Assembly: GCA_018524725.1 (NCBI GenBank)
Contig: JAEUWP010000231.1
Span: forward strand, 105,146 to 169,145
Length of the DNA: 64,000 nucleotides
Direction of reading: 5' to 3'
Source of the DNA: Podaxis mareebaensis
Taxonomy: Eukaryota > Basidiomycota > Agaricomycetes > Agaricales > Agaricaceae
Positions 58,462-64,000 of this stretch are shown piece after piece. A program made the position numbers and the translations under genes. The notes under the pieces are model-generated. The model was not told the DNA's origin and searched no databases. It worked only from the letters and a program-made list of their open reading frames with translations. Numbering within the stretch: position 1 is the stretch's first letter; each line of letters starts with the position of its first letter.

Positions 58462-59569
58462 ATGTCCAGAACATCCTACGATAGGCATGGCTCCTCTTCT
58501 GGACGGCCAATAACGTACTCACTCAGTCCTGCAGATATCTTACAGTTTTTTCCCCAGAAGGTCGTCTGTACCAAGTTGGTGAGCGTGCATGAGGCATCTC
58601 GGCCAACATTCACTCAATTAATACTGTGTAGAATATGCATTCAAGGCGATATCTGGCTCTGGACATACTGCAATCGCGATACGAGGAAAGGACACGGCAG
58701 TTGTCATCACACAGCGAAAGGTTCCTGTGCGTAGCGCTTCCCCGATGTCTATTTCTTCCTCCATTCATAACTTGGCCCTAGGACAAGCTGTTGGACGCGT
58801 CAACAGTGACCCACCTGTTCAGCATTACGCCATATATTGGTTGTGTGATGACGGGTCTCATAGGTGTGTGATGAAGTGTAAATTTCATTCAAGCAAAGAC
58901 TAACTATCACTATAGCTGATGCCCATGCCCAGGTCGCTCGAGCTCGCGCCGAAGCCGCAGACTTTCGCTACAAGTTCGGCTACGAAATCACTCCGGATGC
59001 ACTTGCCCGTCGGATCGCCAACATCAATCAGGTGTACACTCAAAGAGCTGCCATGCGGCCGCTAGGAATCTGTAAGGATCCATTGCTGACAGCTTCCCAC
59101 ATTGTCCATTAACTCGTCATGGCAGCCATGATCCTCATCGGAATCGACCCCGAATTCGGTCCTCAGTGCTTCAGACTTGACCCAGCGGGCTACTTTGTTG
59201 GTTATCATGCAACCTCTGCAGGGCAGAAACAACAAGAAGCGATGAATCAACTAGAGAAGAAGTGGAAGAAGTTGGACTCGGGTAGGGGCGCCGATGAACC
59301 AGCAAAGGCAGGAAAGACCCTAAGTCGTAATGAGGTCATAGAGGTGAGGAGGGCTTTCAGACCACCCTGCCTGTTATTCTGACACGGAAGTAAAGATGGC
59401 GATCGAGGTAATGTCAACGGTACACGCCACGGATTACAAGCCTGGCGAAATTGAGATTGGTATTGTATCTGACAGCGAGGAGGAAGATCCCAAAATACGG
59501 GGAAAGTGGCGGGTGATGGGTGAATCCGAGATTGAGCAGCACCTTCTAGCATACGCAGAAAAGGATTGA
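58462..59569 (+). CDS. SCL1: 20S proteasome subunit alpha-1 (PSMA6 type)
   Basis: Structural outer-ring subunit of the 20S core. Seven exons (58462-58484, 58535-58578, 58632-58726, 58782-58863, 58916-59071, 59126-59343, 59396-59569) give 263 residues, close to the family size. The N-terminus [20 protein letters not shown] is followed by [93 protein letters not shown] and [17 protein letters not shown]. The conserved N-terminus appears only if intron 1 (58485-58534) starts with GC instead of GT: exon 1 ends ...GAT AG and exon 2 begins with A completing Arg. Every GT-based alternative breaks [11 protein letters not shown]. An insert near residues 200-215 ([14 protein letters not shown]) is longer than in yeast or human. 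Confidence 0.95.
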
Positions 59570-60277
59570 AATTGTCTAATTGGATTCCTCCTCTCTTGCC
59601 AGGGGAAGTGGCTAACACAGGATGGTTCAGCATCAGTGCCTGCCATATGATGAAGCGCCTCCACTCTGTAAAGTAGTTCAGTCAAGTTGTGTATGAATAT
59701 ACCACATGCAGGCGCACCATAATGGCCTCCATTTCCCACTCCTCAAGCTCCCTTACTCGCGGTTTCCAGTACCTCGACGGCGCTTCCCAGAAATGACTAT
59801 ATGTCATCGTCCCGGCGGGTGTAAACGCTGCTTCACGGGCTGTCGAGCTGAAGGACTGTCGCTTCTTCACAAAGTCGGTGAAATGCTCCCGGAGCTCTGC
59901 TGGTGCAGCAGGGTGAGGGTGGGGGGCTTCAGATGCTGGACAAAACAGTGAAGTAGGAATATAACACGGTAGGGGCTAAGCTCACCCGAAGGCCACTGTC
60001 GTTTACCAATGAAGCGAATCAATGGTTGGTGGGATCGTGCTGCAAATACGCGCAGGGAAGGAATCATGGCAGTAATGGATGGATGAACACTCGTGACGTC
60101 CCGCCTCTGCCAACCCGAGTATGGTGGCTGTGCTTCGGAGTAACAGACGAGTCTGGCCCCGATGGTGAGATGAGGTAATCAATTACAAGAATAATAAAGT
60201 ACCCCAGTGTCCACCTTGGTTGCTTGTAGGTGGGACTGAAAAAGTTAGCAACAGCATATGCAGTCCATATTGCCACG
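59570..60277. other. Spacer between SCL1 and the CpG-free block
   Basis: About 0.7 kb with normal CpG density. The first part should hold the SCL1 3' end. No gene is supported. The last CpG before the depleted block is at 60276-60277. Confidence 0.5.
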
Positions 60278-61648
60278 CAAAGTAGCAAAAACACTCAAGC
60301 TCTAGTGACAAACACAAGGTGGAACACTGATTGTGCTCTTTCAAGGATTTTCTATGTAACACAAGTTCAGAGATTCCTGTGCAGGCCTTTGCATCCACCA
60401 TATCATCTATTGATCATTTTCCTACAAACAAAGGTACAAACCTGCAATGTAAATGTAATAGTGTCCTCTCACCTTTTGTTGAACCACCACTCATAGCCAG
60501 TATCTTGGGCTGCTATGTGACCCTCACATCACCCAATCTCCTATACTCAGCCAAGGCAGTCTGTAGATCCTCATGGTATACCATTATATCTGGAAGTGTA
60601 GCCCCTATTCCATTCTGCATCAGCTGCCAGTTCCCTGTCCCAATGTTTACTTTATTTTCTCCATATATTGTTGTCCTGCCTGCTCCCTGCCTGCTCCCTG
60701 TCTACTAGGTATCTCAGGGCTTCTGTTCATGACCACTACCACATGTCAATGGAATGGAGGGGGGACATGGCCCACCTTGTCCTCTAGCTGTTCCCCTCCT
60801 TTCCTATTGACATTTGCATCCTTATAGGCCATGTGGTCCATTGACCATTCAGCTGCAGATGGAATCATCCAGAACACAATCATGTGTTCTGGGCTTTTTG
60901 GCAGCCACTCATGAAACCTGCTGCCAATGGCCAAAGGGTGTCATTGTGGGCCACTGTAGACACTTGAGTTGAGTAGTCTTCTAGCCAAATTATGTAAATC
61001 TATAAAGACCACAATGTGCCTTATGTCTGGAACTGAGGTGGCTTTGCAAACCCCATGACTAGCCCCAATGTCCATTTCATCTTTTCTATGCATGAACCAT
61101 CTCTCCTGAGGTGGGCAATGTGACTGCAGCTATGTGATCATGGTGAGACATCACCTACTGCCTGGCATATTCAGAGCACTCATGTCAGTTGTATTTACTT
61201 TCACTGTTCCTGTTAAAGTATTAAAACATAACCTATTTCATGTGGAGACTTATGTTTCTCTTCCCTGGGCATACAAAATTGGCTGTGGGCTGGAAATTTT
61301 CCACAAGTTTTGTTAGTCATTCACTCACACCAATCAAGGCAGCACCTTTTGTATTGTTGCCTTGAGGCAGTTGATCATCTATGCCATTGAGTGTTTCACT
61401 TCTCTGAGCCCTGTGTGAATTAAGTGAGTGGAGGTAATGTTTCCTCTATGGAGGTTACCATCCTTGGTAAGGTGACTGTGCTACAAGCTTATGAGGATGC
61501 AAATGGATGGGTACAAACACATCCACCCATGAGCATCATGCAGAATGCACCATTAATCTACACTGCAGTATTCTATTGCACAGTTTTTAGGGGTTTTAGT
61601 GTGAAGAGGGATCTCCTCTGTTAGAGGTAAAAAAAAAATGAGTGAGTA

Positions 61649-61676
61649 TAGTCAAATCCAATAGTCAAATCCAATG
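61649..61676. repeat. Short tandem duplication (AGTCAAATCCAAT x2)
   Basis: Two adjacent copies of a 13-bp unit, AGTCAAATCCAAT, lie within the CpG-free block. Confidence 0.7.
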
Positions 61677-62921
61677 ACTGCTAGGCTTTGTAACCAAAGT
61701 AGAAGAAGCAGGAACTAAAAATGAGGGGAAGGGGATTAGGAGGACAAGTAAAATAAAGTCAAAAGGTTTGAAACTATAGGTGAAGGGATTAGAGGTAGAG
61801 ATATAAAGTTGGGTTTCAAGTAATGCTAAAGACTCCAAATACAGAGTTAGAGTTACAATTTACTACTTCTTGTACATGATATGCTTCTCTTTATATATGA
61901 GTAGAACTATATTTTTGAAAAAGGATTTTGATGTGGAAAACCATAAGGAGAAAATGAAGGGTAATTAAACTAAGATTAGTCAAAAAATATAACAGGACAA
62001 TAAAATGACAAGATCAGAAACAAATGAGAGTTGGCACTTGTTAGATAGTTTATCTACAATATCAAAGTAGCATAAATAAAGGGAAAAAATGAGACTGAGA
62101 GGCATAGGCTGAAACACAAGCAAAATTCATGAGACAACACTATTGGAATGCAATTACATATAAAATAATAAGAGGGCATACAATTATAGGACTGGTAATA
62201 ATGGAAGAAATATAGCAAACAAATACATACAGGTACAATGCCAAAAAGATTCAGGAGGCTTGAATTATATGACCTATAAGTAGTGATAAGCAGCTTGATG
62301 ATAGATATTTCAATGAGCTATGATCTGAGCTTGAAATTAATGAGAGATCATGCAAGGTTGCTGTTTTCACAAGCAACTGAATATCAGTCTCTACAAGTGT
62401 TTGCATGAGCTTCTTGACTAGGAAGGGGGTGCTAGTTCAAAATACCATCAGAGACAGTAGCTGTAACTTGCAGTACAGAGAACACATGCCCTGCATAGAA
62501 GGTGTTCCTGTGATAGAGATAGACAGAAACTTCTGCTTAAGTTTCCTAGCATACATATGGCCTTTTTATTGATATGAGGGCTCTGTCAAGGTGAAAGCCC
62601 AGATATCTCCAGGTTGCTTTAGGCTGAAGTGGAATGTCAGCTCTGTATGGGTAGATTATTGCCTTTGCAGTTTCACAAAAAGTAGAATACCATTGATTTA
62701 TAATATGTTCAAGGACTAGCCTCAGCTTTTGCAGTTAGCCCATATGATTCTCTAAGTGTGAATAAATGTAGAGGTATCTCCTTTCCAAGAGCTCAACTGC
62801 TTCATTCCTTCTCCTTTGCCTGGAGGACTGAAAAATGTTCAACAATGCTAATGCATTGATGGAGTGTTGCAAACATCAGTCTTCCTTGTCATGCATACTC
62901 ATTATCTCTCCTTGTTGCTAT

Positions 62922-62924
<3 letters not shown>

Positions 62925-62959
<35 letters not shown>

Positions 62960-62968
62960 TCTCTCTCT
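62925..62968. repeat. CT microsatellite
   Basis: An almost pure CT dinucleotide run of about 44 bp with one CC interruption, within the CpG-free block and followed by other T-rich sequence. Confidence 0.9.
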
Positions 62969-63075
62969 TGTTGTCTTGTATTGTACTTTAGTTATCAGTC
63001 TTGTCTCCTTCTAAGTTGTACTATTCTTATCCCTTGGACTCAGTATTACTACTTATGGACTACTTTCCTATTTGA

Positions 63076-63122
63076 GTAGATCTTCAATCTTACCTCAGGC
63101 TTGGTCTAGTATAATTAGAACA
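63076..63122 (+). repeat. LTR-end-like motif, copy 1
   Basis: This 47-bp stretch (starting GTAGATCTTCAATCTTACC and including GGCTTGGTCTAGTATAATTA) is closely matched 880 bp downstream at 63956-64000. Such motifs sit near the inner edge of long terminal repeats and primer-binding sites of Copia-type elements, but no full LTR is proven. Confidence 0.5.
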
Positions 63123-63759
63123 CCAATGTATTTATGAGCCCTCTCAATTTGGACTTATAGAATAGCATTTACATACTATTAAAGTACCTCATAAAGTAAG
63201 TAGAGCTTAGCTTTATGAGTGATTGTATTACATAGTATGAGAATAGGAGTCCTTCTCTTTCCCCTCTTCTATCTTCTTGCTGCATGAGAGCTCTACCTGT
63301 CTCAACAGGACAACTGGCATAACAGCTACATCACTAGAGAGGCCTGCAATCTTATAAGTCATATCCCTCCTGGTGACAGTTCCTACAAGATCTAGACAGC
63401 CTCTAGTTTTTAGGAATAGATGGGCACTTGGTCACTGGGTTTAATTGTCTTGGGTGGTATCTTAGACAGTATCTCTTCACATTGATGCAATACATAATCT
63501 GCACTTATTGTAACAACAATACTCTGGAATGTACAGTAGTGAGCAAAAGTATTGCATGCTAGTCACATGACCTTATCAGAGCCCTCTCCTTGTCATAGAT
63601 TACTACTTATGTACCTCAAATAATTGCCATGAGGCTGTGAGACATGTAGGAAATATATGAAAGTGTAATATAAATCATGTTTCAGTACTGAGAGATGACA
63701 GTTTTACAATTATTACTGAGTTACACATGCATTTCTTTTGATCATTGTTACACTCCTCT

Positions 63760-63955
63760 CGCTTCCGCTGCCATCTATGCCTCTTTTGCATTCCTGCCTC
63801 ATCGCCTGTTGACCACTTTTCTGCCTCCTGACTCCAAGCGTCCACCTCGACCTGTCTTCCATTGCCAACTTCGGCCTCACCTCGGATCTTCCGAAGATGT
63901 GCTATGTTTAGCATTCGGGCTCGGTGATATGTTGTGTAATAATAGCTCGCCTTCT
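63760..63955. other. CpG-containing end segment, probably a younger repeat
   Basis: CpG returns abruptly at 63760 and about a dozen CpGs follow in 240 bp. The sequence is pyrimidine-rich, as in LTR leader regions, and runs into the LTR-like motif copy 2. No gene is supported. Confidence 0.4.
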
Positions 63956-64000
63956 GTAGATCTCATCTTACCTTGGGCTTGGTCTTCTATACTTAGAGCA
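63956..64000 (+). repeat. LTR-end-like motif, copy 2 (cut by window end)
   Basis: Starts GTAGATCTCATCTTACC and includes GGGCTTGGTCTTCTATACTTA. It differs from copy 1 by a one-base gap and several changes. Unlike copy 1 it lies in DNA that still has CpGs. The element presumably continues beyond the window. Confidence 0.5.

Follow-up and report, generated by a model that had tools for sequence, protein, structure and literature searches.

Absence of CpG from a stack of degraded transposon pieces in the mushroom Podaxis mareebaensis, and its probable origin

The CpG-free block and its surroundings

The window considered here is the whole 64,000-nucleotide stretch of Podaxis mareebaensis DNA that was analysed (assembly GCA_018524725.1, contig JAEUWP010000231.1, here C427), the last base of which is also the last base of the contig. 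Its right end carries an exon of a proteasome gene, a block of repeats devoid of CpG, and the beginning of a younger retrotransposon, as listed below; repeats were compared with the entire assembly (36.95 Mb in 429 contigs).

59119-59343, forward strand: exon of a proteasome alpha subunit gene of the SCL1/PSMA6 type, in the CpG-normal flank (PDB sequence match, E 2.7e-14)
60277-63759, no strand assigned: CpG-free block of stacked degraded transposon pieces (0 CpG against 135.5 expected, TG+CA excess 134.2)
60749-61129, reverse strand: remnant of a coding element (127-aa frame with one stop; at least 149 other matches in the same genome, E up to 0.0015)
61663-62396, reverse strand: old, diverged LTR-like repeat (66-72% identity, over the longer pieces, to contigs C266, C273, C19 and others)
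62920-63491, forward strand: repeat A, LTR-like and old (at least 39 other matches at 71-78% identity, some being pieces of one copy)
63528-63745, reverse strand: one terminus of a Tc1/mariner-like transposon, truncated by the element that follows (92% and 90% identity to the ends in loci L004 and L008)
63746-64000, forward strand: younger LTR retrotransposon, of whose 647-bp LTR the initial 255 bases precede the end of the contig (at least 39 other places at 83-95% identity)

A first-pass annotation made from the letters of the window had reported that no CG occurs between 60277 and 63760, where on the order of a hundred would be expected from base composition. Direct counting confirms this observation, with 135.5 CpGs computed as the expectation and the bounding CGs located at 60276 on the left and 63760 on the right. 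The absence is real and far beyond chance: the lowest CpG number among 500 shuffles of the letters of the block was 107, and the Poisson probability of finding none is about 1e-59. The reverse dinucleotide GpC is normal (observed/expected 1.01). The proposed comparison with TpG and CpA has also been carried out, and the block holds 550 TG and CA dinucleotides against 415.8 expected; this excess is nearly equal to the CpG deficit, so that the loss of CpG is balanced by a gain of TG and CA.

The flanks were said to have CpGs at the usual spacing, and they do. The 10,277 bases ahead of the block contain 565 CpGs against 626 expected, the second-longest CpG-free gap within the window is 163 bases, and the other 60 kb are CpG-normal. 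Only one CpG, that at 60276, is present in 60161-63759, so the depletion may start up to about 115 bases to the left of the edge given above.

The block is a stack of old degraded transposon pieces. The remnant at 60749-61129, in the left part of the block, has no Pfam match and no match in the protein database; in pattern it resembles the RNase H region of a LINE. One of its genome matches is overlapped by locus L015, where no usable frame was found. When the 730-bp copy in C266 served as the query, the LTR-like repeat that follows was recovered in the window as two pieces, 61873-62380 and 61663-61712, and C266 itself carries two copies of this repeat 7.1 kb apart. Repeat A is likewise present twice in one contig (loci L017 and L009 of C150, 8.55 kb apart); in the window it starts with a (TC)n microsatellite (62922-62968) in which the unit is repeated 23.5 times. 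The terminal inverted repeat of the Tc1/mariner-like piece (63532-63565) recurs at the opposite end of L004, in which a transposase HTH domain gives a weak match below the cut-off (PF01498, E 0.0011). A search of the window against Rfam gave no match.

The right edge of the block is explained by the adjoining LTR. Its copy in the window begins with TGTTACA at 63746 and contains 11 CpGs in 255 bases, comparable copies at 30 retrieved loci contain 4-17, and the seven LTR pairs inspected all have TGTTACA...TGTAACA ends and matching 5-bp target duplications; a retroviral-type protease (RVP_2, E 3.5e-6) adjoins one LTR of the family (L034). Since the LTR starts exactly where the mariner match stops, insertion at this point is most likely, and the sharp right edge separates old DNA from young; the first 14 bases of the LTR (63746-63759) happen to be without CG. 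The left edge needs nothing beyond the end of the transposon debris. Thus, of the two possibilities offered by the first-pass annotation, that the edges mark the limits of a methylated domain or of an element, it is the limit of an element that has held. The annotation had named the neighbouring gene SCL1, with which the SCL1/PSMA6 type of its one exon compared agrees. The chromatin barrier that, it suggested, might lie between this gene and the block, at 59570-60277, finds no support in an insertion boundary on one side and an end of debris on the other.

CpG-free repeats elsewhere in the genome

The search of the block against the rest of the genome, also suggested at the outset, has shown that most of its parts are repeats with copies on many contigs. 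Among 29 other loci retrieved with the block as the query, and hence chosen by similarity rather than at random (no genome-wide fraction is given), the matched part, a copy of one or other of two of its pieces, contains no CpG in 28 and three CpGs in the remaining one (L024). The C-to-T change affects the repeats and leaves the rest of the window normal; within the block, 60278-61662 has no DNA-level copy in the genome, protein-level matches being present for the coding remnant. The block looks ordinary for its genome and not like a special domain. The first-pass annotation had considered that other copies might prove equally CpG-free yet unmethylated; the CpG-free half of this is borne out, and such DNA has no CpG left to carry CpG methylation.

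Nearly the same state has been reached by a displaced relic of rDNA (L068:2636-5009, contig C393) that comprises the 3′ part of the SSU gene, the ITS, 5.8S, and the 5′ part of the LSU gene. Against a 5.8S reference sequence entered by hand, 9 of 10 CpGs are lost, with three changes at 147 other sites, all of them C>T or G>A. The SSU part keeps one CpG against 38 predicted from its own composition. Over six alignment blocks with the Rfam consensus, whose differences from the species have other causes as well, all eight strongly conserved CGs are lost, while changes occur at 7 of the 267 remaining sites of strong conservation, five of them G>A. The 5.8S of this relic is the only one that has been found in the assembly.

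A second Tc1/mariner family (L068-L079, with L068:825-1825 as one of its members; PF01498 in L069, E 3.6e-11) is represented by 12 copies with unrelated downstream flanks. They lie, in order, on the following contigs:

L068-L079: C393, C132, C268, C150, C290, C15, C397, C335, C310, C299, C238, C191

Eleven of these copies have no CpG and one has a single CpG. Pairwise, they differ on average at 1.9 TG/CA sites (at most 6), by 62 other transitions, and by 8 transversions. If the copies had decayed separately, about half of approximately 36 sites would differ between them, which argues that the family spread from a source already lacking most of its CpG. This spread may reflect an escape from methylation, or dead copies may have been mobilised by the transposase of another element. 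CpG methylation alone does not explain the 62 non-CpG transitions against 8 transversions per pair in these old copies. The non-CpG differences are almost all transitions, and C varies more often in CpA (128 of 185 positions) than in CpC (59 of 137) or CpT (78 of 184), a bias that the simple model leaves unexplained too.

Rate and pattern of CpG loss

Because the two LTRs of one insertion are identical at the start, the loss of CpG can be timed against changes at other sites. In seven LTR pairs, 81 CpGs are kept in both LTRs, 126 have been hit in one of the two, and 41 sites have TG in one LTR and CA in the other; the same pairs show just seven transitions and three transversions at about 4030 non-CpG sites. 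According to the first-pass annotation, a complete loss implies long and heavy methylation. A long time is not needed, since about half of the CpGs in these seven pairs have gone while ten non-CpG changes accumulated.

Over 11 pairs, CpG loss has been estimated to be about 490 times faster than non-CpG change (95% interval 320-810). The value is rough, as the starting number of CpGs was obtained by doubling the TG/CA sites, eight of the 11 pairs come from a single family, and the ratios of individual pairs lie between 180 and 1686, with two pairs lacking any non-CpG change. One common ratio is compatible with the data when compared with pair-specific ratios (p 0.17 for all 11 pairs, p 0.08 for the nine that retain CpG), and the rank correlation between CpG survival and non-CpG divergence is negative without reaching significance (rho -0.53, p 0.09). 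The two oldest pairs, with a non-CpG divergence of 3.2% and 4.1%, share no CpG at all. A single mutational burst was considered as well and dropped, given the graded loss among the pairs. The corresponding excess of CpG change in vertebrates is roughly ten-fold, and a value near 490 lies far above it. Based on chemical rates, spontaneous deamination left unrepaired could outrun the fungal mutation rate a few hundred-fold.

The hits themselves are distributed without obvious order. Along 14 LTRs, the succession of TG and CA makes 112 runs against 110.1 ± 6.4 expected at random, and the strands are hit without significant imbalance (P 0.28); the random order fits a site-by-site loss in double-stranded DNA. 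The least-hit context is TCG, with 23 hits and 198 surviving sites (p 0.0007), the counts being taken over both strands and therefore not fully independent. TCG is likewise the least affected context in vertebrates.

Probable methylation with poor repair, and the rival explanations

The cause proposed by the first-pass annotation, CpG methylation followed by deamination, has come out as the best-supported one as far as sequence can tell, on the combined evidence of the TG/CA balance, the copies, the clock, the random choice of strand, the context bias, and the methyltransferase genes found. We consider it probable that CpG methylation of transposons, together with a scarcely repaired deamination of 5-methylcytosine that has run to completion, is the explanation of the block. 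CpG methylation would be almost restricted to transposons, where 5-methylcytosine on either strand would deaminate to thymine; the resulting T:G mismatch would hardly be corrected, and CpG would decay to TpG or CpA. With a CpG clock about 490 times faster than change at other sites, elements beyond approximately 1% neutral divergence would have essentially no CpG left, and genes, being unmethylated, would retain theirs. We infer both the methylation of these CpGs and a rate that is set by poor repair and not by an active mutator.

Related fungi provide a background for such a mechanism. One protein of the window matches Leucoagaricus sp. SymC.cos at 92% and Agaricus bisporus at 88% identity. 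In A. bisporus, CpG methylation is found almost only in transposons and has clear borders; the same study saw no sign of a RIP-like shift of base composition in the methylated repeats of this relative (PMC7473861). Repeats are also methylated in Marasmius oreades (PMC9674265). The decay of CpG to TpG and CpA in transposons is shared with Microbotryum (PMC4352252) and Tricholoma matsutake (PMC6980582), as is a set of methyltransferases of the DNMT1/Masc2 type with none of the RID type recognised; in comparison with them, Podaxis is distinguished by a complete loss in old copies and by the LTR-pair ratio. Methylated vertebrate DNA likewise undergoes deamination of 5-methylcytosine, but the depletion of CpG in the human genome is put at about five-fold (PMC13297926), against zero CpG over 3.5 kb here. 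None of the literature titles searched was recognised as reporting zero CpG or a rate ratio of this order.

The main rival is a CpG-directed process akin to RIP, in which a mutator linked to a methyltransferase converts a fraction of the CpGs in repeats during each sexual cycle. It is a possible reading, which we hold to be rather unlikely beside methylation and poor repair. It would account readily for the great preponderance of CpG change over other change and for an rDNA relic hit almost purely at CpG, and CpG hypermutation has been termed RIP-like in T. matsutake (PMC6980582) and in Rhizoctonia solani AG8 (PMC4014442). Against it, the loss varies by degrees from one LTR pair to the next and can be fitted by a constant ratio (repeated weak rounds of RIP could also give this), strand-coherent runs are lacking, and the poor targeting of TCG is the opposite of the TpCpG bias of hypermutation described for Pucciniomycotina (PMC4014442). 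The RIP of Ascomycota shares with Podaxis the C-to-T change in repeats, displaced rDNA included. In Ascomycota, however, RIP mostly favours CpA and requires RID (PMC4352252), whereas in Podaxis the target is CpG and no RID has been recognised. A preference for CpA is not seen in the LTR pairs, which show seven non-CpG transitions beside hits at 167 or more CpG sites; a CpA bias appears solely among the non-CpG differences of the old mariner copies.

The genes that might serve either process have been looked for in the same assembly. PF00145 is present at four loci, which by their best matches are classed as two DNMT1-like, one DNMT5-like (the matched structure, 7r76, we take to be a DNMT5), and one DNMT2-like; no RID-type methyltransferase was recognised among these best matches, all four loci being nearer by name to other types. 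A profile search of the genome with PF03167 gave no match. Exons resembling uracil-DNA glycosylase (UNG) were nevertheless found with TIGR00628 at C150:156139-156694 and C4:97720-98212, below the curated cut-off and possibly representing two UNG genes, which makes the PF03167 result uninformative on thymine glycosylases. TET/JBP-like stretches occur at seven places (C93, C346, C162, C356, C100, C286, and C90), three of them with internal stops; such genes can reportedly travel with transposons.

The remaining explanations are far less credible. Foreign DNA from a CpG-poor organism, or an artefact of assembly at a contig end, might be suspected from the end lying 241 bases away, but it is highly improbable: the repeats of the block recur on dozens of the assembly's contigs, partly depleted intermediate copies exist, and the contig ends inside a many-copy LTR, a common site of assembly breaks. 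Even less can be said for a single-strand cytidine deaminase acting on retrotransposon intermediates, which would agree with the dominance of C>T changes but not with hits on both strands in random order, with DNA transposons and an rDNA relic equally affected, or with CpG as the target and TCG as its least-hit context. Selection that keeps CpG absent, for example in an unmethylatable insulator or boundary, is just as hard to credit, the sharp edges and the gene 0.7 kb away being set against unrelated repeats in the same state at many other loci, a right edge that is an insertion site, and a block in which no further conserved feature was found.

The interest of the locus is in the speed and completeness of the CpG loss, and in CpG-free transposons that moved. 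LTR pairs turn this loss into a clock, and a ratio near 490 suggests either that deaminated methylcytosine in this DNA goes almost unrepaired or that an active CpG mutator operates in the mushroom. Annotators of such a genome could apparently take a long run without CpG as a simple sign of old transposon DNA. The question is also raised of how transposons are silenced once their CpG is gone, and whether those free of CpG escape. It is conceivable, if doubtful, that a fast and complete decay of CpG erases the targets of its own methylation and so favours transposons without CpG; if true, CpG methylation would not see such elements, which could nonetheless go on spreading.
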